Shown piece after piece: positions 32,095-50,312 of a stretch of DNA of 64,000 nt; within the stretch, counting starts at the first letter, position 1, and the number at the start of each line of letters is the position of its first letter. The notes beneath the pieces are model-generated. The model was not told where the DNA came from and did not search any database. It saw only the letters and a list, made by a program, of their open reading frames with translations. Origin of the DNA: Thermogemmatispora onikobensis. GTDB taxonomy: Bacteria > Chloroflexota > Ktedonobacteria > Ktedonobacterales > Ktedonobacteraceae. The translations under genes and the position numbers were made by a program. The stretch covers positions 1 to 64,000 of the forward strand of contig NZ_BDGT01000025.1 in NCBI RefSeq assembly GCF_001748285.1, read 5' to 3'.

Positions 32095-33257
32095 ACGGGG
32101 ACGGTGATAAGAGCGTGTCCACAGGCAGTACAGAAGCGAGTGCTGGCCAGGTGGATGCGTCCGCAGCCGGGGCACTGGTTGATTGGGCAGCCGCAGCGGG
32201 TGCAGTAGCGCATGTGGGGTTTATTCAGATGCTGGCAATTAGGGCAGAGGTAGCCAGTGGCATGTGGTTGAGCTGCTCCTCCGGGTGAGGCGGGTCTGGC
32301 TGGTAAAGCGGCTGGGGCTGCCTGGGCAGGCTGTGGGACTGGTGGGGAGGGCGGGACGAAGCGCTCCCCTGGATAGGCTGGTTGGTAGGCTGGCAGTCGA
32401 CCGGTAGCATGGATTGCCAGATCGAGCGCATCGGCCAGCTCGCTGGCGCGTTGGTAGCGCTGGGCGGGGTCCTTCATCAGGGCAGTCAAGATCACTCGCT
32501 CCACCGGTAGGGGCAGAGTGGGATTGAAGCGGCTTGGTGGTAGAGGTGGCTCGTAGAGGTGGCTGTGAGCCAGGGCCGGGTAATTGTCGCCGAGGAAGGG
32601 AGTGCGACCGGTCACGGCCTCGTAGAGCATGACGCCCAGGGCATAGATATCGGCCCGTCCATCGACCTGCCCGCCCATACACTGCTCAGGGGACATATAT
32701 TCAGGGGTGCCAACGCCGGCGCCCGGGCGTGTCAGCTGCTCGTGGCTGCTTGCCAGGACCTTAGCGATGCCAAAGTCCGAGAGAATAGGGCGGCCCGAGC
32801 GATCCATCAACACATTGACCGGTTTCACATCGCGGTGAATGATCCCCTGGTCGTGAGCATAGCTGAGGGCGTCGGCAATCTGACGAAAGACATGTGCGGC
32901 CTCTGTCAGATCCATCGTTTTCCCCTGGGCGCGGAGCTGGTCAAGCCGCTGCTTCAGTGTCCCCCCATCGACCAATTGCATAACGATATAGAGCAGCCCA
33001 TTATATTCGCTGGCGTCATGGACCGTGACGATATTGGGATGAGACAGGCGAGCGACCAGGCGGGCTTCGAGGTTAAAGCGCTCGACGAAGCTGCGGTCTG
33101 AGGCGTACCAGGGCGGGAGCACTTTAATTGCGACCTCGCGATCCAGATTTTCCTGGCGGGCGCGATAGACGCGGGCCATGCCGCCCTGGCCCAGCGGGGC
33201 CAGAATCCGATAGTTTCCGAGTGTTGCTCCGATCAGCTCATCGTGTTGTGGCTGCAC
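32091..33257 (-). CDS. Ser/Thr protein kinase with C-terminal zinc ribbons
   Basis: 388 residues. A complete Hanks-type kinase domain occupies ~1-275: glycine loop LGQGGMARVY, VAIK Lys45, IHRDVKPVNV (141-150), DFG (161-163), TPEYMSPEQ and ADIYALGVMLYE. A Pro/Ala linker leads to two zinc ribbons at the end (CPNCQHLNKPHMRYCTRCG and CPGCGRIHLASTRFCTACG). There is no transmembrane helix, unlike PknB. All catalytic residues are present, so it should be active. It is the last gene of a kinase/FHA operon and converges with the response regulator, overlapping it by 3-4 nt. Confidence 0.93.
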   Translation of the reverse strand: MQPQHDELIGATLGNYRILAPLGQGGMARVYRARQENLDREVAIKVLPPWYASDRSFVERFNLEARLVARLSHPNIVTVHDASEYNGLLYIVMQLVDGGTLKQRLDQLRAQGKTMDLTEAAHVFRQIADALSYAHDQGIIHRDVKPVNVLMDRSGRPILSDFGIAKVLASSHEQLTRPGAGVGTPEYMSPEQCMGGQVDGRADIYALGVMLYEAVTGRTPFLGDNYPALAHSHLYEPPLPPSRFNPTLPLPVERVILTALMKDPAQRYQRASELADALDLAIHATGRLPAYQPAYPGERFVPPSPPVPQPAQAAPAALPARPASPGGAAQPHATGYLCPNCQHLNKPHMRYCTRCGCPINQCPGCGRIHLASTRFCTACGHALITVPV

Positions 33258-33520
33258 AACTCACCCCATTGAAGAGGGCACCCTGTTGGAGGCTGCGGGC
33301 CAAGAGGCCAGCAACCAGCCGCGGCATCCAAAGTGATGCGACGCGGCGGGTGCCCGACCGATGTGACACACGTTCCGGGCCTGCCTGACCTGGCGAAGGG
33401 AGGCAAACCCGGGGCCGAAGAACCAAACCAACAAGCCAGACCCAAGGAAGAGTACCGTGCCAGGCTGCAGGAAGCCAGCCGGGCCGGATGCCAGTACGCT
33501 GAGCCACCACAGATCTGTCA

Positions 33521-34882
33521 TCAACGTTTGGCGAAGACAAGCACGGTTTGCCCGAGCTGGATCTTATCCCCCTCCTGGAGCGGATAGGGCTGGTACTTAG
33601 TGATCGTCTGGCCATTCAGCCGGGTTCCGTTGGCGCTCCCCTCATCTTTCAGGGCATAATTGCCATTGCCCATATTGATGATCGAAGCGTGCAAGCGAGA
33701 GACAGCCAGGTCCTCCAGGAAGATATCGCTTTCGCGGCTGCGCCCGATGCTGAGCGAGTCCTTGCGGATCTCGTAGACGCGACCGGCCTCCTTCCCTTCT
33801 TCGACGCGCAAGATCCCGATTCGACCCTGCGGTCCTGTTGCGCGCAGCATCGTCTTATCGGCCTCGGAGAAGGCGGAAGGAGTAAGCTCCTGGGGTTGAC
33901 CGAACTGGCCGGGCTGGCCAGCGGGGCCGGTGGGAGCGAAGCCGGGCAGAGAGACTGGCTGCTGAGCCTGCTGAGGCGGCTGCTGCCAGGGGCTGCCGGT
34001 GGGCGAAGGAGGCGCAGGTGTGGCGGGGACCTGCCCCATCAAGCCGGCACCCTGTGGAGGCTGGAGTCCCTGGCCCCAGGGCTGGGAGGGAGAAGCGCCC
34101 TGGGCCTGAGCCTGGGCCCAGGGGTCGGCAGATGCAGGCTGTCCTGTTTGTTGCCCGCTCTGACCCCAGGCAGGCATCCCTGTTGAGCCAGAAGGCGGCT
34201 GCTGGGTCTGCTGTGACAGGCTCCAAGGCGCAGTGTTGCCACTCTGCGGGGCGGGCTGGCCCCACGGGTTCTGAGCACCTGCCAGCGGCTGGCTCTCCCA
34301 AGGCGAAGCGGGGTTGCCGGCAGGCGCACTATCCCAGCTCGCGCCCGAGGGAGAAGGTGCTCCCTGGGCCTGCCCCGGGGGCATCCCCCACGGAGGGCTT
34401 TGCGGTTGCGCTTGAGCACCCCAGGGAGACATTTGCTGTGCTGGCTGCTGGGCCTGGGGCTGAGGCTGGGGAACGGACCAGGGAGCTGGCTGGGGCTGTG
34501 CTCCTGCGGCTCCTGCGCTGCTACCACTCCAGGCGCCCGGCTGCTGAGCCTGAGCTGGATTTTGGGCGCTCCAGGGCGAGAAAGGAGGCTGCTGCTGTGG
34601 TTGGGCCGCCATGCCTGGGCCGGGGCTGCCCCATGCGCCGGGCTGCTGTGCTTGGGGAGGCTGGCCCCAGAACTGGTCGGGGGCGTTCCCCATCGCTTGC
34701 TGGCCCCACCCTCCGGGGGCGGCCTGGCGCTGCCATTCTGGCACCTGAGCCTGCGCGGCGCTCGTCTCCTCATCGCGCTTCTTGCCGCTGCTGCGTATCA
34801 GCAAGATGGCCCCCACGATCAGGATGATAACGACGACCGCTGCAATGACGAGGATGAGCGGACTCGAGAGTAGATTATGCAT
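33521..34882 (-). CDS. Membrane-anchored FHA-domain protein with Gln/Pro-rich linker
   Basis: 453 residues. An N-terminal membrane helix (LILVIAAVVVIILIVGAILL, 8-27) is followed by ~310 residues very rich in Gln, Pro, Ala, Gly and Trp, with repeated PWGQ/AWG-like motifs. The C-terminal ~95 residues form an FHA domain (IGRSRESDI, SRLHASI, NGTRLNGQ). It likely recruits threonine-phosphorylated partners to the membrane, with the flanking kinases as the natural phosphorylators. It sits 107 bp below one kinase-FHA gene and 263 bp above another kinase. The linker is low-complexity and may be disordered. Confidence 0.88.
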   Translation of the reverse strand: MHNLLSSPLILVIAAVVVIILIVGAILLIRSSGKKRDEETSAAQAQVPEWQRQAAPGGWGQQAMGNAPDQFWGQPPQAQQPGAWGSPGPGMAAQPQQQPPFSPWSAQNPAQAQQPGAWSGSSAGAAGAQPQPAPWSVPQPQPQAQQPAQQMSPWGAQAQPQSPPWGMPPGQAQGAPSPSGASWDSAPAGNPASPWESQPLAGAQNPWGQPAPQSGNTAPWSLSQQTQQPPSGSTGMPAWGQSGQQTGQPASADPWAQAQAQGASPSQPWGQGLQPPQGAGLMGQVPATPAPPSPTGSPWQQPPQQAQQPVSLPGFAPTGPAGQPGQFGQPQELTPSAFSEADKTMLRATGPQGRIGILRVEEGKEAGRVYEIRKDSLSIGRSRESDIFLEDLAVSRLHASIINMGNGNYALKDEGSANGTRLNGQTITKYQPYPLQEGDKIQLGQTVLVFAKR

Positions 34883-34989
34883 ACTGGTTCACCCCTCCGA
34901 GTTGTAGGAGCTGCCTGGCCGATCCACATATCCTCGCGGAGAAAGCGACCGCGTGGGCCGTCCCTACAACTGCAAAATAGCGTAATAGC

Positions 34990-36204
34990 TCAGCGCAGTT
35001 CAAAGCGAACCTCGACGCTGCCGAAGCGGAGAATATCTCCATCCTTAAGTACATGCTCCTCATGCGGTGCAAGAACCACTCCATTTAAGCGGGTTTTATT
35101 CAGAGCGTTCAAGTCCTCAACGGTAAAAGTACCATGCTGATTGCGGATATAGGCATGCCGTCTGCCAACTGTCTTATCCATGAGATTAATCTCGGGGTAA
35201 ATCCCAAGAATGGGATCGTGGCGACCGACAACCATTTGCTCACCGGTAAGAGGAAAGACCTGGCCCGTAGCGATAACGACCAGGCGGGCCTGTTTTTGAG
35301 GAGGCATGCGGGGAGGAGCGGAGCGCTCTCCCTCGGGGGGCTCGGCACGCTCATCAGCGCCCACCTCGTGGACACGCTGCTGCAGCTGCTCCAAGGCGGC
35401 CAGGAACTCCTGGGGAGTCTGATAGCGCTCTGCAGGCGCCTTGGCCATCGCCGTCTGGAAAAACTGGTCCATCTCCGGCGGCAGCCCTGGCCGCTGCCGG
35501 CAGATCGAGGGCACTTTCTCGTTCATGTGCTTGATGACTATATCGACCGCTGTCTCACCCTCGAACGGCGGATGGCCGGTCAGCATTTCAAACAGGACGG
35601 TGGCGACCGAATAGAGATCCGAGCGGGTATCCGCCGAGCGCCCGCTCTCGGCCTGCTCGGGCGCAATATAGTAAGGAGTGCCCATGAACATGTTTGACCG
35701 GGTCAGGGTAACCGTCTCGCTGCTGCGTGCTAGCCCGAAGTCGGTGATTTTGACGACATCCTTCGTGTTGATCAGGATGTTCTGGGGCTTGATATCGCGA
35801 TGAACTACGCCATGCCGGTAGGCAACGTCCAGACCCTCGACGATCTGATGCGCATAGTTGAGCGCGCGCGAGGGCTTCAGTGGCCCATAGGTAATCGTAT
35901 GGTACTTGAGGTTCTGCCCATCGATGTAATCCATCACGATAAAGTGCATGTTGTGGTCTTCCCCATAGTCGATGATGCGCACAATATGGGGATCACTCAG
36001 GTGCAACAGGATGCGGGCCTCACGCTGAAAACGGGCCAGCAGCTCGCTGTCCCCCGCCAGCTCGACGTGCAAGACCTTGATGGCATAAATATGGTTGTTT
36101 TCGAGGTCACGAGCAACATAGACGGTGGCGAAGTTGCCCCGCCCTCTTTCGTCAATCAGTTTGTAGCGACCCTTGATGACACGCCCGATCATGTCACCGT
36201 CCAT
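34990..36204 (-). CDS. Ser/Thr protein kinase with C-terminal FHA domain (copy 1)
   Basis: 404 residues; ATG preceded by AGGAG at 8 nt. The kinase domain has RGNFATVYVARD, AIK Lys43, VHRDIKPQN (HRD 135-137), DFG (155-157), TPYYIAPEQ and SDLYSVATVLFEML. After a short charged linker, an FHA domain runs from ~310 to the end (VVGRHDPILGIYPEI, GRRHAYI, NKTRLNGV). There is no membrane helix. The same architecture and many identical stretches occur in 37480-38793. FHA binding to a phosphorylated self or partner is the usual way such kinases control docking. It heads the operon with the FHA membrane protein and the second kinase. Confidence 0.93.
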   Translation of the reverse strand: MDGDMIGRVIKGRYKLIDERGRGNFATVYVARDLENNHIYAIKVLHVELAGDSELLARFQREARILLHLSDPHIVRIIDYGEDHNMHFIVMDYIDGQNLKYHTITYGPLKPSRALNYAHQIVEGLDVAYRHGVVHRDIKPQNILINTKDVVKITDFGLARSSETVTLTRSNMFMGTPYYIAPEQAESGRSADTRSDLYSVATVLFEMLTGHPPFEGETAVDIVIKHMNEKVPSICRQRPGLPPEMDQFFQTAMAKAPAERYQTPQEFLAALEQLQQRVHEVGADERAEPPEGERSAPPRMPPQKQARLVVIATGQVFPLTGEQMVVGRHDPILGIYPEINLMDKTVGRRHAYIRNQHGTFTVEDLNALNKTRLNGVVLAPHEEHVLKDGDILRFGSVEVRFELR

Positions 36205-36586
36205 GGCGCAATCTCCTACTTAAAGGCTATTCCTCGCGGCTATTATAGCATCATTCCCTGTCTCATGTCATTGGTACGTGGCTTTTTTCATCGCTCCCAT
36301 CTCGGGAAACCGGTGCTGACAGACCGGGTAAGACATAGTAATAGGCTACTCTTCGAGCAAACTCCTCTGCACTTCTTGCTTCGCAGGCCAGGAACGCATA
36401 TAGTGATAACGAAGGCTCGCCGACCTTCCTCTGCCTTGCGTGAGGAGGATCTACTGCGAAAAGGCCCTTTTCCAGGATGATGGCGCCAGCATTCCCTACT
36501 GTAGAGTAGACTCTTTCTTGACCAGTAGTGATCTTCCTATATTGTCTAGCTTTGTTCGATAAATCTGGATGAGGAGGAGACAGCTG
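36205..36586. other. Divergent promoter region between kinase-FHA and HAD genes
   Basis: 382 bp. It holds the leftward promoter at 36242-36271. On the rightward side a possible TTGACC / TATTGT pair near 36515-36545 precedes the HAD gene; it is weak. Confidence 0.5.
36242..36271 (-). promoter_or_regulatory. Promoter of the kinase/FHA operon
   Basis: On the minus strand: -35 ATGACA (36266-36271), 18-bp spacer, -10 TATAAT (36242-36247) with TGC before it (extended -10). The start would lie ~30 nt before the ATG at 36204. Confidence 0.65.
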
Positions 36587-37396
36587 ATGGAGACTATTCG
36601 CGGCGTGCTGCTGGATATTGATGGGGTGCTGCATGTGAGTATGCAGCCCATTGAGGGCGCTGCCGAGGCGCTGCGCTGGTTAGAGCAGCAGGGGTATCGC
36701 TATGCCTTTGTAACCAATACCACGACTATGGCCCGTCCGACACTGGCGCAACGTCTCCAGGCGATCGGGCTGCCAGTCTCTGCTGAGCAGCTTATTACGG
36801 CTCCTGTAGCGACCGCCGCCTATTTGCGCCACGCCTATCCAGGCAAACGCTGCTGGCTGCTCAGTAAGGGGGATACGGCGGCGGATTTCGCTGGCGTTGA
36901 ACTGGTTGAGCCTGGCAGCTCGGGAGCGGAGCACGTCGATGTAGTGGTGATCGGAGGGGCCGAGGAACTGCTTTCCTATGAGAATATGAACCGGGCTTTT
37001 CGCCTGCTGATGGCTGGCGCCGATCTGGTCGCCATGCATAAAAACCTCTACTGGCGTGTGAGCGATGGGTTGCGCCTCGATAGCGGGCCGTTCGTCTCGG
37101 CTCTAGAGCTGGCCTCTGACAAGCAGGCCGTGATCATTGGAAAGCCCGAGCGGGCCTTCTTCGCGGAGGCTGTACGCTTGCTCGGAACGGAGCCGGAGGA
37201 GACGCTGATGGTAGGCGACGATCTTGTCAATGACGTTCAGGGGGCCAGGCGGGCCGGTCTGCGGGCCTTGCTTGTCTGCACTGGCAAGCACGGACCGGAT
37301 ACGCCTCTGCTCAGGGAGTGCCCGCCGGAGGAGCGGCCCGAGGCGTTGCTGCCTTCGGTAGCGGCTTTACCTGACTATCTTGCTGGCCAGAGCTGA
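36587..37396 (+). CDS. HAD-IIA family phosphatase, LHPP-like
   Basis: 269 residues from the ATG at 36587 (GGAGGAG 7 nt upstream). The HAD motifs are intact: DIDGVL at the N-terminus, FVTNTTTM for motif II, the late Lys in IGKPERAF and GDDLVNDVQGA for motifs III/IV. The order and the TTTMARPTLAQRLQ stretch match the NagD/LHPP group, which removes phosphate from sugar phosphates, phosphohistidine/phospholysine or pyrophosphate. A phospho-amino-acid phosphatase between two kinase genes would be apt, but the substrate is not proven. It converges with the kinase-FHA gene at 37480. Confidence 0.85.
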   Translation: METIRGVLLDIDGVLHVSMQPIEGAAEALRWLEQQGYRYAFVTNTTTMARPTLAQRLQAIGLPVSAEQLITAPVATAAYLRHAYPGKRCWLLSKGDTAADFAGVELVEPGSSGAEHVDVVVIGGAEELLSYENMNRAFRLLMAGADLVAMHKNLYWRVSDGLRLDSGPFVSALELASDKQAVIIGKPERAFFAEAVRLLGTEPEETLMVGDDLVNDVQGARRAGLRALLVCTGKHGPDTPLLRECPPEERPEALLPSVAALPDYLAGQS

Positions 37397-37479
37397 GGGG
37401 GGATGAAGCCGGTCCGGTCAGGCGGGCGACCTGGTGTGCTCTCGCCTTCCGCGGAAAAAGCGGCGAGCTAGAGAGCGAG

Positions 37480-38793
37480 CTAGCTTGTCGCCTCCTCCCC
37501 GTCCTTCGCCTCCGTTGGTGCCTGCTCATGGCCGTTGATCAGTTCGAAGCGCATTTCAATATTGCCGAAGCGGAGGATGTCGCCGTGCTTGAGCGCCCGC
37601 TCTTCGCCCGGTGGCAGGAAGCGACCATTGAGGCGAGTGCGGTTGCGTGAGTGGAGATCCTCAATGGTAAAAAAGGTGCCCTGCCGATTGCGGATGCAGG
37701 CATGGCGTCTGCCCACCATCTTGTCGGCCAGGCTGATATCGGGATAGAGGTTACGCATAGGATCACGTCGCCCAATGATTATCTCCTGATTGACCAGGAG
37801 AAAGACTTCCCCCGTGGCCAGGTGAACGAGTCGGGCTGCGGCTCGTGGAACTGGGGCCTTCTCTGTGGCGGCTGGGGCCTCGATCACGGTGCTTTGCTCA
37901 GGAAGGGCCAGCGGATCAGCCGGGACCCTGGGCTGGCTGGTCTGCTGAGGCAGGCTGACCGCGGCGCGGCGCAGGTTCTGCAGCGCATCGATAAATTCCT
38001 GGGGCGTTTGATAGCGCCGTTCGGGGCGCTTGGCCAGGCCTTTTTGGAAAAACTGGTCAACGATGGGGGGGAGATCGGGACGCAGCGGGTGCAGCGCTGG
38101 AATAGGCGTACTCTTATGCTTGACAATCAACTCCATCACATTGCTGCCCCGGTAGGGCGGTTGGCCAGCCAGCATCTCGAACAGGATGGCCGCCAGTGAG
38201 TAGAGGTCAGAGCGAATGTCTGCCGCATGGCCACTGTCGATCTGCTCAGGTGAAATGTAGTAGGCTGTGCCCATAAATTCATCGGTCTCGGTGATCGTCG
38301 GGGTATCCTTGGCCCGCGCCAGACCAAAATCAGTGATTTTTACCTCTCCCCGGTTATTGACCAGGATATTCTGCGGTTTCAGGTCGCGGTGCACAATGCC
38401 GCGACAGTTAGCCGCTTCTAAACCAAGAGCAACCTGCTCAGCATAATCCAGAGCAGTCTCCAGGGGGAAGGGACCGCGACGCTGCATGATGGTTCGCAGG
38501 TTATGGCCATCGACGTAATCCATGACGATGAAGTGGACTTGTCCATCCCAGCCGTAGTCGATGACATGGACGATGTGAGGATCATCAATGCCCAGTGGGA
38601 GCGAGGCCTCGCGCTGAAAACGCTGCAGAATCTCCGTATTGCGTAAAAATTTATCGTGCAGCAGTTTAACGGCATAGAGATAGTTGGTTTCCAAGTCGCG
38701 GGCAATGTAGACCGAGCCAAACGCTCCTTCTGCAATCTGGTCAATCAGTTTGTAGCGCCCTTTGACCAAATAGCCGAGAAAGGTGTCGTCCAT
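37480..38793 (-). CDS. Ser/Thr protein kinase with C-terminal FHA domain (copy 2)
   Basis: 437 residues from the ATG at 38793 (GGAGGAGGAG 8 nt upstream). The motifs mirror copy 1 (34990-36204) at the same positions: Lys43, VHRDLKPQN (135-143), DFG (155-157), TAYYISPEQ, SDLYSLAAILFEML. The linker is longer (Pro/Thr/Ala), then an FHA domain (IIGRRDPMRNLYPDI, GRRHACI, NRTRLNGR). All catalytic residues are present. It lies 72 bp after a GT87-like membrane gene in the same direction and may be read through from the glycan operon. Confidence 0.93.
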   Translation of the reverse strand: MDDTFLGYLVKGRYKLIDQIAEGAFGSVYIARDLETNYLYAVKLLHDKFLRNTEILQRFQREASLPLGIDDPHIVHVIDYGWDGQVHFIVMDYVDGHNLRTIMQRRGPFPLETALDYAEQVALGLEAANCRGIVHRDLKPQNILVNNRGEVKITDFGLARAKDTPTITETDEFMGTAYYISPEQIDSGHAADIRSDLYSLAAILFEMLAGQPPYRGSNVMELIVKHKSTPIPALHPLRPDLPPIVDQFFQKGLAKRPERRYQTPQEFIDALQNLRRAAVSLPQQTSQPRVPADPLALPEQSTVIEAPAATEKAPVPRAAARLVHLATGEVFLLVNQEIIIGRRDPMRNLYPDISLADKMVGRRHACIRNRQGTFFTIEDLHSRNRTRLNGRFLPPGEERALKHGDILRFGNIEMRFELINGHEQAPTEAKDGEEATS

Positions 38794-44640: not shown

Positions 44641-45933
44641 TTACTCTTCCGAGACCGGCTGGCTCTCAGTGGCGTGAGGTGTGGCTTCGACGCTTCCAGA
44701 GCCAGTGCTCTCCCGAGAGAGAGAGACGATCTCGGGAGTGGGCGAGGTGACCATAGTACCAGCCGGCAAGACTGGTACCGCTTGCTTATTGTCCCCGGCC
44801 TGGACACCCGTTGTCAATTCCTGGGTATGCAAGCTAGGATCATTGTACTGCGGCAGCTTTAGCTCCTGGCGGATGAGGCGGATCGCCTGGTAAACCACAG
44901 CGGGCTTGAGCGAGAGCTGCTGCGCGATGGTACGATGGACGCCGATTGGAGGCACAGGGAGAAACGGCTCATACAGGGCTCGGATCTTCGCCAGTTCTTC
45001 GCTGTTCCCTCGGTAAGGCTGGACCTCCCACCAGCTTGGCAGCCCCTCGCGCTCGCGCAGGGCCTTCACGATCTTCTTCACTGCCGATTTAGGGATACTC
45101 AGCTCATGGGCAATCCGTGTACGGATGCCATCGAACTCAACAGGCTGGGCCAACTCCTTGTAGCGCGCTTCGACCAGGGCCACCTGCTCTGGAGTAGGCA
45201 CGAACGGAGCCGGCGGAGGAGTTTTTTCGTGCTTGGGCTTGACCGGCTGTGGGAGAGGCTTCGCTGCTTTTGCGGGCTCCTTTGCCTGCCGATGATGGGG
45301 ATGGGGATGGTGGTGGGAAGCCTGGCCCGATCCTGGCCGGGTGCTCCCTTTCCCGCTGGGGCCGAAGCCGAAGCCAGCAGCAGCGCCAGTAGATCTGGAG
45401 AAAGGGCCGCTCTGGCGGGGACCACGTGCAGGACCGCTCTCCACGGGAGAGCGTGGACGCTGGCCCAACGTAGAGTAACCGCCGCGGAAGAGAGGACCTC
45501 GGCGCTCCGCTTCCCAGTATTGAGCGGGGCCGCGTGGCCCTGGCCAGTCCCGTTCCCGTTCCCGCTCTCGCTCTGCACGCAGAGGGCGCTCCGCAGCTCG
45601 TGGCCGTGGGCCTTCTCGCCCTGGGGGGCGCGTCTCGGCAGGGAAGCGGGAGGCTGGTCCCTGCGGTGAGCGGAAACGCGCAGGTGGCTCTGGCTCACTG
45701 ACCTTGATATCCTGCAGATGATCAAGCCAGTGGTTCGTCCCTCCCGGAGAACTGGGGGGACGCGGGGGCGGCGGCACTGGACGGGGCGCGCTCACTGGTC
45801 TCTGCGGCCCTGTTTTAGTGACCTGCTTCTCTCTCCGCGATTTCTGATTACACTCAGGGCAAAGGGCATCTTTAGCATTAACCGACTGGAATCGCTTGCC
45901 GCAGTTGATGCAGCGCATCTTGACTTTACTCAT
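44641..45933 (-). CDS. Zinc-ribbon protein with two helix-turn-helix-like repeats
   Basis: 430 residues from the ATG at 45933 (GGGAG upstream). A zinc ribbon (CINCGKRFQSVNAKDALCPEC) is followed by a ~200-residue Arg/Pro/Gly-rich, positively charged region. Then come two similar ~45-residue units: EARYKELAQPVEFDGIRTRIAHELSIPKSAVKKIVKALRE and RALYEPFLPVPPIGVHRTIAQQLSLKPAVVYQAIRLIRQE. Each contains a predicted helix-turn-helix (I-AxxLSIPKSAVxxIV / IAQQLSLKPAVVYQAI). A basic linker plus HTH pair suggests nucleic-acid binding. No named family is recognised. The C-terminus is Thr/Ser/Glu-rich. Confidence 0.7.
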   Translation of the reverse strand: MSKVKMRCINCGKRFQSVNAKDALCPECNQKSRREKQVTKTGPQRPVSAPRPVPPPPRPPSSPGGTNHWLDHLQDIKVSEPEPPARFRSPQGPASRFPAETRPPGREGPRPRAAERPLRAERERERERDWPGPRGPAQYWEAERRGPLFRGGYSTLGQRPRSPVESGPARGPRQSGPFSRSTGAAAGFGFGPSGKGSTRPGSGQASHHHPHPHHRQAKEPAKAAKPLPQPVKPKHEKTPPPAPFVPTPEQVALVEARYKELAQPVEFDGIRTRIAHELSIPKSAVKKIVKALREREGLPSWWEVQPYRGNSEELAKIRALYEPFLPVPPIGVHRTIAQQLSLKPAVVYQAIRLIRQELKLPQYNDPSLHTQELTTGVQAGDNKQAVPVLPAGTMVTSPTPEIVSLSRESTGSGSVEATPHATESQPVSEE

Positions 45934-45995
45934 GCAGTTCTCCCTGTACCGCTGGATACAAGAACTTCTCTCACTCGCGTCGGAATGCACTTCCT

Positions 45996-46097: not shown

Positions 46098-49000
46098 TCA
46101 ATTGTCCGCTCCCGGGGAAGGCTGACGCCCGTTCTGGAAAAAGCGGTAAACCTCTTCCAGCCGATCAGTGCGACGCGCGGGGGGGAGGGCCTGCAAAATC
46201 AGCCGGCCATAGCTCTTCGTATAGATGCGGCTATCGAGAATGGCCATGACGCCGCGATCCTCGCGCGTGCGCAGCAAACGGCCCAAGCCCTGCTTGAGGC
46301 GCAGCACGGCCTGGGGGAGAACGTAGGAACCAAACCAATTCTCGCCAGCCGCTTTCATAAGCGCGATGCGGGCGGCGTGGACCGGGTCGTCGGGCGGGTC
46401 GAACGGCAGCTTGTCGATGACCACCAGCGAGAGGGCTTCCCCGGGGATATCGACCCCTTCCCAGAAGCTTTTGAGGCCGAAGAGGAGCGCGGGCTCCGCT
46501 CTGAACTGGCGCAGCAGCTCACTGCGCGGCCAATCGCCCTGGCGTAGCAAGCGGAAAGGCAGGGCGCTTCCCTGCAGCAGCTCGTAGACTGCATCCAGCA
46601 TACGCTGGCTGGAGAAGAGCAAGAAGGCGCGGCCTTGGGAAGCATTGACCAGGTGCAGCATTTCCGCGGCGATGGCCTCGATATAGCGTCGCACGGCCTC
46701 GCCCCCGCCGTAGGCTGGTTCGGGCAGATGGCGCGGCAGGTAAAGCAGGGCGTTCTGCTCGTAGTCAAAGGTCGGAGGAAGAATCTGTTCTTCTACCTCT
46801 GGCATCTCCTCATAGCTGAGGCCGATGCGCTGTCGAAAGTAAGCGAAGTGGGGACCTTTCTCCTCTGGCCGCAGCGGATGGGGTCCCGTGGTGGCCAGGG
46901 TGGCCGAGGTGAAGATGAGGACTGGGGTTTTCAACAGTTTCTCGCGCAGCCAGGAGGTCACATCGAGCGGAGCCGCTGAGACCTCGATATGGCTGCCGCG
47001 TTGCCCTGGTTGCATCACGCGCTCTAGGTAATAGACATAGCGCTCGGGATGATTGACGGCGAACACGGTGCGAATGTGCTCAGCCAGATTCTGCGTGCGC
47101 TTGAGCAGTCGATCGTAGAGGGTGCTCTCCTTTTCGGGCAGGTCGCGGGGGCGCTCCTGGCGTAGAGAATCGGCGAGCTGGGCGATGACTGTCGCTAGCT
47201 GCAATCCTTCCTCCAGTGGTTCTTGGAGGTTCAAGCGGGCACCAGGTCCGTAGGAACGAGCCAACTGCTCCAGGCGGCGCCAGGTTGTGAGCCAGGCGCG
47301 CTCGGCCTCGTCCTGGAGGCTCAAGCGGCTATGCTCCTTCAGCATGCGCTGGGCGAGCAGGGTGCGGATCTGGTTGGGGCTGATGGTGATAGTGAAGGCC
47401 CGGGTTGCCTCCTCTTCAAGATGGTGAGCTTCGTCCAGCACGATGATATCGCGCTCGGGGAGCAGGTGGCCCTCCAGGGCTGCATCGAGCAGCAGCAGCG
47501 TGTGATTCACCACGATGATCTGCGCCTGCTCGGCGCGCAGGCGCATCTGCCGGACGTAGCAGTCGAAGAAGAAAGGGCATTTGCTCCAGGCGCACTGGTC
47601 GCGCTCGGCCACAACCCGGCTACGCAGGTCGGCGGAGAGAGGGAAATCGAGGCTCTCAATATCGCCGTTGAAATCGGCGCCGGGGTCCTGGGTCAGCTCG
47701 TAGAGCCGGCGAAACTCGCGATTTTTGGCGTAGAGCTGCATGCCGAGGCGCTCGCTTTCGAGGCGATCCAGACAAAGATAGTTGCCCATACCTTTGACCA
47801 GGGCCGCCTCAAAAGGCTTGATGTGCTGCTGGACGAAAGGAATATCTTTGTAAAAGAGCTGCTCTTGAAGTGCTTTGTTGGCAGTGCTGATAATGGCTAC
47901 GCGGCCCGAGCGAACGATGGGAACAAGGTAGGCCAGCGATTTGCCGGTGCCGGTGGCCGCTTCGAGGATGGCGTGGTGCCTTTGCTCCAGCGCGCGGGCC
48001 ACAAGCTCGGCCATAGCGATTTGGGCGGGCCGCTCTTCGTAGCCTGGCAAACGGCGCGAGAGGATACCGCCCTGGCGCAGGTCAGCGCGTACGATGGTCA
48101 GCAGACCTTCCTCTTCTTCTACCTCTGCAGGCTTCTCATGTGTCGATGGGACTGGACTATCAGATCCAGGCTCCTGGGAAGGAGCTGCGGGAGCTGGGCG
48201 AGCAGGAATAGCGGTGGCCGGGATGGTTGAAGCCACATGGTGCGAGGCAGCGGGGCTGTTCTCGCTGGGCGAGGTCGTCCGTACTGGCGGTGGAGGTTGG
48301 ATGATTGGCGGTACCATTCCACGCTCGCGCTCTTGAGCCTGGTAGCGATGGGGCAGACCCTTGATGGCGGCCAGACAGGCGTCGGTAAAAGCGCGCACGT
48401 GGGGAAAGCGCTCCCCAGGATCAGAGGCCAGGGCCTGCAGTAGCACTGCTTCCAGCTCTGGTGAAAGCGTCGGGTTCAGGTTGCGCGGCCTGATCAGCTG
48501 CTGGCGTTCCTGCTGAGCGAGCAGTTCTGCGGCTGTCCGTCCCTCATAGGGAGGGCGCCCGCAGAGCCAGTGATAGACCAGGGCCGCCAGAGCATACTGA
48601 TCGCTGGCCGGCAGAGGAGAGCCGCGCAGATGCTCCGGGGCTTTATAGGGCAAAGCTGCAGGCTCGTCGTCGTAAGTCAGGTACCCGTCGCGGCAAGCCA
48701 GAGCAAAGTCGGTCAGCACTGCATGGATAGGCTCGCCAAGAATGCAGCCCGGGTGGAGATTGCCATGCACCACCTTGCGCTGATGTGCCATATGCAAGGC
48801 ATCGCCAATGGAGAGCAACACCGGCAGAATCTGCTCGGGGGATAGGCAGTCCTGTCCCTGAAAATAGTGTGCAATGTCCTCGCTGGGAAGATCGTGCAAC
48901 ACGAGATAACCGTAGCACCGATCGCTGCCGGGCTGGTTGAAGAAGCCGTAGTCTCTCACCGAAGCAATAGCGCGGTTGCCGGCAAGTCTTTTCAGGTGGC

Positions 49001-49184
49001 GTGCTCGTTCCTGAAAAAGCTGCTGGTCGGCCTCGGTAAGCAAGGGGAGAGCACTGACCTTGAGAAAGATCTCGGCGCGAGCGCGTTTCGCTGGCTGACA
49101 GCGGTAAAGGGTGCCACCGGCATTCTCCTTGATTTTCTCGGCGATGGTGTAGGAATCAATCTGGTGCAAGTCTAGACCTGCCAT
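46098..49184 (-). CDS. Pseudokinase - DinG/XPD-type iron-sulfur helicase fusion
   Basis: 1028 residues from the ATG at 49184 (GGGGGAG about 10 nt upstream). Residues ~5-280 have the Ser/Thr kinase fold order but degenerate catalysis. HRDLKPxN is replaced by HGNLHPGC (Asp to Asn, Lys to His, Asn to Cys, 140-147), DFG is DFA (159-161) and the glycine loop is poor, while APE and DQYALAALVYHWLCGRPPYEG are kept. After a ~95-residue Pro-rich linker comes a complete superfamily 2 helicase: Walker A ATGTGKS (410-416), four Cys for a 4Fe-4S cluster (471, 531, 536, 542), DEAH (584-587) and the C-terminal GLGRLLRTREDRGVMAILDSR. The helicase part matches DinG, a 5'-3' DNA helicase acting on R-loops and forks. 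The fusion suggests a helicase controlled through a pseudokinase. Confidence 0.9.
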   Translation of the reverse strand: MAGLDLHQIDSYTIAEKIKENAGGTLYRCQPAKRARAEIFLKVSALPLLTEADQQLFQERARHLKRLAGNRAIASVRDYGFFNQPGSDRCYGYLVLHDLPSEDIAHYFQGQDCLSPEQILPVLLSIGDALHMAHQRKVVHGNLHPGCILGEPIHAVLTDFALACRDGYLTYDDEPAALPYKAPEHLRGSPLPASDQYALAALVYHWLCGRPPYEGRTAAELLAQQERQQLIRPRNLNPTLSPELEAVLLQALASDPGERFPHVRAFTDACLAAIKGLPHRYQAQERERGMVPPIIQPPPPVRTTSPSENSPAASHHVASTIPATAIPARPAPAAPSQEPGSDSPVPSTHEKPAEVEEEEGLLTIVRADLRQGGILSRRLPGYEERPAQIAMAELVARALEQRHHAILEAATGTGKSLAYLVPIVRSGRVAIISTANKALQEQLFYKDIPFVQQHIKPFEAALVKGMGNYLCLDRLESERLGMQLYAKNREFRRLYELTQDPGADFNGDIESLDFPLSADLRSRVVAERDQCAWSKCPFFFDCYVRQMRLRAEQAQIIVVNHTLLLLDAALEGHLLPERDIIVLDEAHHLEEEATRAFTITISPNQIRTLLAQRMLKEHSRLSLQDEAERAWLTTWRRLEQLARSYGPGARLNLQEPLEEGLQLATVIAQLADSLRQERPRDLPEKESTLYDRLLKRTQNLAEHIRTVFAVNHPERYVYYLERVMQPGQRGSHIEVSAAPLDVTSWLREKLLKTPVLIFTSATLATTGPHPLRPEEKGPHFAYFRQRIGLSYEEMPEVEEQILPPTFDYEQNALLYLPRHLPEPAYGGGEAVRRYIEAIAAEMLHLVNASQGRAFLLFSSQRMLDAVYELLQGSALPFRLLRQGDWPRSELLRQFRAEPALLFGLKSFWEGVDIPGEALSLVVIDKLPFDPPDDPVHAARIALMKAAGENWFGSYVLPQAVLRLKQGLGRLLRTREDRGVMAILDSRIYTKSYGRLILQALPPARRTDRLEEVYRFFQNGRQPSPGADN

Positions 49185-49580
49185 CAATGGCTCTCCCCCA
49201 CAACTGAACAGATGTTTGTGCTGCTTGTGCCAGTATATCACAGCTGTCGTTGGGGGACAATGTCAGACTGGGCGGGCGGGGCGATGGCGAGACCTGGCGG
49301 TAGGTGGGGGCCTGCTGCTTTCCCTCCCAGCACGCCACTTGACAGAAGTGCCAGAGTCAGCTATTTTAGCGTCAACGAGACACGCATTGTGAGGAGCGTG
49401 GCACAACACGCAATGGATGAGCGAGCGGGCGCCAGGCCGGGGAAAGGTGCACGCTTCTCGCAGTGAGCCACCTGACCTGAAGACCGACGCAGCTTGCTCT
49501 CGCGACGCTCATCCTGAGTGTGGCCTCTTTTCACCGCTGAGCTGTCTCCTGGCTTTCTTACTTTATTCCAAACAACAACT
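49185..49580. other. Divergent region between kinase-helicase and Nudix genes
   Basis: 396 bp. It carries the leftward promoter at 49232-49260. A clear rightward promoter or ribosome site for the Nudix gene was not found. Confidence 0.5.
49232..49260 (-). promoter_or_regulatory. Promoter of the pseudokinase-helicase gene
   Basis: Minus strand: -35 TTGTCC (49255-49260), 17-bp spacer, -10 TATACT (49232-49237) with TGA before it. The start would be ~40 nt before the ATG at 49184. Confidence 0.55.
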
Positions 49581-50312
49581 ATGGGTGAGCAGAACGAGCA
49601 GATGAGCAGTGGGCAGAGCCAGACACCGAGTGCAGAGGCCCAGGCCCATCATTATGATCCCTCGAAGTATGAGCGGCCATCGGTGACCGTTGACGTGGTG
49701 ATGATGAGCATTCGCCAATCCGATCTGCAAGTGCTGCTGGTCAAGCGGCGCTCCTGGCCGTATGAGGGGATGTGGGCTATTCCGGGTGGCTTTGTACATA
49801 TTGATGAGTCGCTGGAGGATGCAGCCAAGCGTGAGCTGCATGAGGAGACAGGCGTCCAGGACGTCTATCTGGAGCAGCTCTATACCTTTGGCGATCCTGG
49901 ACGCGATCCGCGCATGCGGGTGATCACGGTCGTTTACTACGCACTTCTCGATTCGGAGCGCTTGCAGGTACGCGCAGCGGATGATGCCAGTGATGTCGGC
50001 TGGTTTTCCATGTACAATCTGCCGGAGCTGGCTTTTGATCACGCCAAGATTCTGGCCTACACGCTCCAGCGGATTCGGGGCAAGCTGGAGTATACGACCA
50101 TCGCCTTTAACTTGCTACCGGAGCAGTTCACGCTGCGCGAGCTGCAGCGCGTTTACGAAATCATTCTTCACCGCAAGTTGGACAAGCGTAATTTCCGCAA
50201 GAAGATTCTCTCCACCGGTATTCTGGAGGATACGGGGGCCAAGAAAATGGAAGGAACCCACCGACCCGCCCGCCTCTATCGTTTCAATCCGGCGGCAGTC
50301 GCGCGCCAGTAG
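49581..50312 (+). CDS. Nudix-domain protein with winged helix, NrtR-like
   Basis: 243 residues from the ATG at 49581; no good Shine-Dalgarno is visible and the start is uncertain. The Nudix domain (35-160) has an intact box: G70, E76, R84-E85-L86 and E88-E89-x-G91. The C-terminal ~65 residues (FTLRELQRVYEIIL, KRNFRKKILSTGILEDTG) form the winged helix of the NrtR family, which represses NAD-synthesis genes and is released by ADP-ribose. An intact box means it may still hydrolyse a nucleotide sugar. It is divergent from the pseudokinase-helicase. No NAD gene is in the window, so its target is elsewhere or is that neighbour. Confidence 0.85.
   Translation: MGEQNEQMSSGQSQTPSAEAQAHHYDPSKYERPSVTVDVVMMSIRQSDLQVLLVKRRSWPYEGMWAIPGGFVHIDESLEDAAKRELHEETGVQDVYLEQLYTFGDPGRDPRMRVITVVYYALLDSERLQVRAADDASDVGWFSMYNLPELAFDHAKILAYTLQRIRGKLEYTTIAFNLLPEQFTLRELQRVYEIILHRKLDKRNFRKKILSTGILEDTGAKKMEGTHRPARLYRFNPAAVARQ

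Follow-up and report, generated by a model that had tools for sequence, protein, structure and literature searches.

In a stretch of 64,000 nucleotides of DNA from Thermogemmatispora sp., here called the window, one gene encodes a protein in which a disordered linker (aa 282-358) connects a kinase-fold domain (aa 1-281) to a DinG/XPD-type iron-sulfur helicase (aa 361-1018). The fusion is common to most genomes of the family surveyed, and its N-terminal domain, judged by its residues almost certainly inactive as a kinase, has been retained under purifying selection. The main role of this pseudokinase domain might be docking, a reading by analogy to which a probability of about one half is assigned.

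Architecture and motifs of the fused protein

The frame runs through 1028 codons without a break (Table 1), with Pfam matches to Pkinase (aa 63-260, E 5.6e-14) and Helicase_C_2 (PF13307; aa 843-1002, E 3e-41). The sequence-only reading, which had seen a kinase-like part joined in one frame to a helicase with Walker A, DEAH and four cluster cysteines, is upheld, the frame being intact and the motifs in place. It had named a sequencing error involving two genes as the danger to this view; both an error of this kind and the false joining of two separate genes are discarded, since the same fusion is found in one frame in six Thermogemmatispora genomes, with 84-92% identity in the five others and 56-58% in other genera. 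The closest named relative is Thermogemmatispora carboxidivorans PM5 with 92% identity over the protein. ATG 49184 is the likely start of the gene because the alternative GTG 49241 falls between the -35 and -10 elements of the conserved promoter and a purine-rich ribosome-binding site, GGGGGAGAG, is located just 5' of the ATG.

Table 1. Positions of the fused gene, its motifs and flanking elements in the window
Feature	Position	Strand	Evidence or remark
Promoter-like pair TTGTCC-17-TATACT	49232..49260	minus	conserved across genera
Candidate LexA box AAACATCTGTTC, directly after -10	49206..49217	minus	NAAC-N4-GTTN; matrix rank
Fused gene, 1028 aa	46098..49184	minus	ATG 49184, stop 46098; one frame in 22 genomes
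Pseudokinase domain, aa 1-281	48342..49184	minus	Pfam Pkinase; AlphaFold2 pLDDT 88; Foldseek best PknB/PknA
Beta-3 Lys K42	49059..49061	minus	kept here; Gln in 5/22 fused copies
Alpha-C position, Arg60 replaces Glu	49005..49007	minus	alignment with the genome's canonical kinases
Catalytic loop HGNLHPGC, aa 140-147, replaces HRDxKPxN	48744..48767	minus	alignment of fused copies
DFA, aa 159-161, replaces DFG	48702..48710	minus	alignment of fused copies
Disordered linker, aa 282-358	48111..48341	minus	pLDDT <50 over 282-358; dN/dS 0.40 for aa 286-360
DinG/XPD-type Fe-S helicase, aa 361-1018	46131..48104	minus	Pfam, NCBIfam, motif alignment; Foldseek 6fwr E 1.2e-37
Walker A GTGKS, aa 412-416	47937..47951	minus	conserved in 32 sequences
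Fe-S Cys471	47772..47774	minus	invariant
Fe-S Cys531, Cys536, Cys542	47559..47594	minus	invariant
DEAH box, aa 584-587	47424..47435	minus	invariant
Helicase C-terminal motor domain	46179..46658	minus	Pfam Helicase_C_2
Downstream zinc-ribbon protein	44641..45990	minus	adjoins the fused gene in 14 loci including the window

The AlphaFold2 model of the kinase-fold domain (pLDDT 88, pTM 0.88) is closest in Foldseek to M. tuberculosis PknB and PknA (TM-score about 0.71-0.81, 0.81 for PknA; 21-26% identity), which share the fold but are active kinases, whereas the fused protein has lost the catalytic residues. The replacement of the catalytic Asp, the loop Lys and the loop Asn along with the DFA motif, already recognized before, is confirmed, and Arg60 at the alpha-C Glu position is an extra change that had been overlooked. 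Among 22 aligned fused copies the HRD Asp is present in none (Asn in 21, Lys in one), the catalytic-loop Lys is replaced by His, Tyr or Gln and the DFG Gly by Ala, Ser or Thr throughout, and the alpha-C Glu, equally never present, by Arg in 20 copies and otherwise by Tyr or His; each copy has 4 to 7 of 7 catalytic residues changed, and the glycine loop is not kept. The HRD His, the DFG Phe, the Pro and Glu of APE, the alpha-F Asp and the alpha-H Arg, which hold the fold, are invariant in all 22. The pseudokinase alignment is considered sound, since 50 canonical kinases encoded in this genome hardly vary at the catalytic positions (45 of the 50 have the alpha-C Glu). In PMC12599244 a pseudokinase is defined by a kinase fold from which beta-3 Lys, HRD Asp or DFG Asp, or more than one of them, is missing; the domain belongs to this class, and the features examined for an active Ser/Thr kinase are missing, as the HRD Asp is absent and a salt bridge between beta-3 Lys and alpha-C Glu is impossible without the Glu. 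The original designation as a pseudokinase has gained strength from a loss common to the whole family.

The domain had been proposed to sense a ligand or to dock, and to gate the helicase in this way; docking survives as the likelier half, and ligand gating loses ground because a conserved ATP-type pocket is unlikely with no alpha-C Glu in any copy and with variable beta-3 Lys and DFG Asp. A gate that would turn helicase activity on or off upon binding of a nucleotide or other small molecule ranks second to docking and is regarded as rather unlikely: the beta-3 Lys is kept in 17 of 22 copies and the DFG Asp in 14, and some pseudokinases bind nucleotides (PMC4718504), but Gln in the remaining five copies and E, S or G in the remaining eight represent a drift that a conserved ligand site should not display, the alpha-C Glu and the glycine loop are gone, and one lineage keeps the helicase without the domain. 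The Thermogemmatispora copies, in which beta-3 Lys and DFG Asp are both kept, may bind nucleotides weakly. The altered HGNL(H/Y)P loop is itself nearly invariant among the fused copies, as might be expected if the kinase fold catalysed another transfer in the manner of SelO (AMPylation) or SidJ (glutamylation); such a non-canonical enzyme is nevertheless very improbable, as the copies differ freely from one another at the positions of the DFG Asp and the loop Asn, whereas SelO and SidJ retain their metal-binding residues.

The assignment of the second part to the DinG-type iron-sulfur helicases is corroborated by Pfam, NCBIfam, motif conservation and structure match alike. Walker A and DEAH motifs, four iron-sulfur cysteines and the overall DinG fold place it in the DinG/XPD-like class; the motifs, including those of the C-terminal motor, show little or no variation over an alignment of 32 sequences, the best structure is E. 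coli DinG (6fwr) and the best NCBIfam model is the YoaA helicase (aa 369-1017, 559 bits). The helicase part is very likely active. As the second DinG-like protein of the genome (L038, G000:C17:82859-83341), with DADL at the DEAH position by eye, looks like a degenerate and possibly inactive helicase, the cell's principal DinG-type helicase is probably the fused protein. As a separate observation, two DinG helicases of different families carry inteins with LAGLIDADG domains at Walker A, between GTGK and S (L087:9189-10499 and L098:8157-9464); these inteins are 69% identical to each other and more alike than their more diverged host helicases, which suggests horizontal transfer.

The genome is kinase-rich, as had been claimed, with 72 Pkinase matches. 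The catalytic Asp is kept in 56 of about 71 kinase-like domains; therefore, pseudokinases are not rare in this genome and the fusion is the standout feature. Three kinase genes are located at most 18 kb from the fused gene (window positions 32454-38754).

Distribution, selection and natural deletion

The family consists of soil and hot-spring bacteria. When the same fusion was sought in 29 genomes of this family (Ktedonobacteraceae in the broad sense), it was found in one frame in 22, including Ktedonobacter, Dictyobacter and Ktedonosporobacter. Two genomes (G022, Dictyobacter vulcani, and MAG G008) have both halves, separated by a break in the frame, one has a fragmented gene (G006), one a helicase without kinase domain (G019), and three, all incomplete MAGs, have no clear copy. 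In Dictyobacter vulcani (L082:8001-9300) the frame break in the linker results in two overlapping frames, pseudokinase and helicase, by a true split or a sequencing error. Ktedonobacterales of other families, Acidobacteriota and Desulfomonilaceae possess the helicase alone, and among the nearest helicases the fusion is limited to Ktedonobacteraceae in the broad sense. In a tree of 44 helicases, in which the root of the Ktedonobacteria part is not fixed, two label changes suffice, one gain and one loss; most simply, the kinase-fold domain would have been gained once, in the ancestor of the broad family including Thermogemmatispora and Dictyobacter.

Across the six Thermogemmatispora genomes the pseudokinase has a median dN/dS of 0.14, compared with 0.40 in the linker (aa 286-360) and 0.045 in the helicase, and by this measure the pseudokinase domain is under purifying selection. 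The natural deletion is found in the MAG G019 (locus L097), where 1014 nucleotides (338 codons) are gone in frame relative to L074; the gap opens directly behind the start codon and closes where the linker ends, covers exactly pseudokinase and linker, and is located at a GAG microhomology (L097:3030-3060 versus L074:8001-9021). The flanks are colinear on both sides with 86% nucleotide identity, and the helicase is 94% identical to that of L074, its nearest fused relative, with a dN/dS of 0.069. As the in-frame loss leaves a constrained helicase, the pseudokinase can be seen as a modular accessory, which is selected in most lineages and appears dispensable in one, represented by a single MAG with an assembly fault possible.

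This clean deletion, the two genomes with a broken frame and a dN/dS of the domain three times that of the helicase would agree with a passenger, that is, an incidental acquisition (the suggestion of Cheng 2025) which decays without a role. Such a fate is improbable, though, as a dN/dS of 0.14 represents clear purifying selection and 12 genera have kept copies, the most diverged with about 38% identity, and 36 columns of the pseudokinase alignment are invariant.

Relation to described helicases and pseudokinases

The statement of the sequence-only reading that DinG/XPD helicases are not normally fused to kinases is broadly true, except that one orthologue had already been reported. Section 3.10 of Cheng 2025 (PMC11981726) describes 'Ktedonobacterales bacterium SCAWS-G2' with two DinG-like proteins, one of them with a PknA-similar kinase-like domain, which is put at the C-terminus and deemed incidental. 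SCAWS-G2 is Ktedonosporobacter rubrisoli, and its genome has two DinG-like proteins in agreement with that section. In its orthologue (L092, 54% identity over the fusion) the kinase domain is, however, N-terminal in sequence (aa 3-274 of a 1059-aa frame), and the passage on SCAWS-G2 does not state that the domain is a pseudokinase, family-wide or selected. New with respect to that passage are the N-terminal position, the apparently dead state, the occurrence throughout the family and the selection on the domain, as well as the promoter conservation and a possible LexA box. A search of the literature on kinase-helicase fusions in Ktedonobacter gave nothing beyond Cheng 2025.

With E. coli YoaA and DinG the fused protein shares the iron-sulfur SF2 helicase core, 5'-3' by prediction, and differs by the extra N-domain and its tether. 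YoaA membership is excluded: the 559 bits lie below the curated NCBIfam cut-off of 680 bits, and HolC (PF04364), whose presence in the same genome delimits the YoaA subgroup in the relevant part of PMC11981726, is absent from the five genomes of the family searched, the E. coli control being positive. Recruitment of YoaA by HolC, as the same part describes for E. coli, is not available here because those five genomes have no HolC homologue. An extra C-terminal helix, alpha-7, is a marker of the YoaA subgroup; the fused-protein model has a short helix at aa 1009-1017. ExoDinG and pExoDinG likewise carry an accessory domain N-terminal to the DinG core, a pseudoenzyme as well in the case of pExoDinG, but theirs has a DnaQ-like exonuclease fold and that of the fused protein a kinase fold; this excludes pExoDinG membership, and the fused protein is in architecture the kinase-fold counterpart of pExoDinG. 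The DLHK proteins, soluble and mainly proteobacterial pseudokinases that are frequently linked to a DEAD-like or DNA2 helicase domain, keep the HRD Asp (O'Boyle 2025; PMC12599244); the fused protein, with a DinG/XPD-type helicase and the HRD Asp missing in all 22 copies, is not a member.

A part in anti-phage defence or in type IV CRISPR has to be considered, as PADLOC matches typeIV_DinG and several kinase defence models. These matches are generic, reflecting the general DinG and kinase families, and the reading is rejected as extremely improbable. CasDinG is characterized by the lack of the four iron-sulfur cysteines (in the portion of PMC11981726 on CasDinG) and by being encoded with csf genes, whereas here the cysteines are kept and the chromosomal gene belongs to the syntenic core, no cas-like gene having been recognised next to it in the compared loci; CasDinG membership is excluded.

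Promoter, neighbouring genes and proposed role

The genes neighbouring the fused gene encode Nudix, HAD, HIT-like and glycosyltransferase-like proteins. The zinc-ribbon protein downstream is proline-rich, matches no family above cut-off and is by synteny a candidate partner of the fused protein. Upstream, a divergent Nudix/NrtR-like gene is located at 49518-50312, and between the two genes a palindrome, TTAGTGTAnnnnATACACTA, is conserved in Ktedonobacter and Dictyobacter (seen in L075, L077, L078, L080, L082-L086 and L092), probably the operator of the NrtR-like regulator.

Intergenic alignment across genera shows that the promoter-like pair is kept, followed by AAACANNTGTTC right after the -10, and of 21 fused or split genes inspected, 18 are preceded by NAAC-N4-GTTN. 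With a matrix built from presumed LexA boxes of the GAATAnnCGTTC type in the lexA promoters of the family, the Thermogemmatispora and Ktedonobacter sites rank in the top 6e-5 of window positions, the Dictyobacter sites lower. The joint consensus RAAYANNYGTTC occurs a single time in the window, at the fused-gene promoter, and in the genome also precedes lexA, ruvC-ruvA (inside the end of the preceding gene) and mutL. Genome-wide, the LexA-box pattern is not enriched over the reversed control (27 versus 35), and recA upstream regions have no NAAC-N4-GTTN match. As the classical GAACNNNNGTTC with one mismatch is no commoner in the window than in shuffles, it is conservation and position that count for a LexA-type box. 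SOS control of the fused gene by LexA is plausible on these grounds.

Docking is the most economical role for the pseudokinase because the domain is attached to a disordered tether and is unlikely to transfer phosphate or to have a conserved nucleotide pocket; it rests on analogy because the model of the fused protein (pTM 0.62, linker disordered) gives no prediction for the placement of the domain relative to the helicase. The gene might be induced upon DNA damage via LexA, for which support is modest, and the pseudokinase would serve to bind proteins and so recruit the helicase to a partner or to a particular site, comparable to the recruitment of E. coli YoaA by HolC; possible targets are the replisome, SSB, or one of the many kinases of this genome or a substrate of theirs. 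The tether, some 75 residues long and disordered by prediction, would join the docking module to the helicase, which would perform ATP-driven 5'-3' unwinding at stalled forks or R-loops. More speculatively, and with a low probability, the pseudokinase could dock active kinases or phosphorylated partners at stalled forks and link the Ser/Thr phosphorylation network to the SOS response.

Bacterial pseudokinases are almost unexplored, and few of them reside on a host protein with an easy activity assay. The relative with the domain precisely removed (L097) serves as a natural control, and the combination of a dead kinase on a well-assayed helicase with a natural deletion makes the part of a pseudoenzyme in bacterial DNA repair directly testable.
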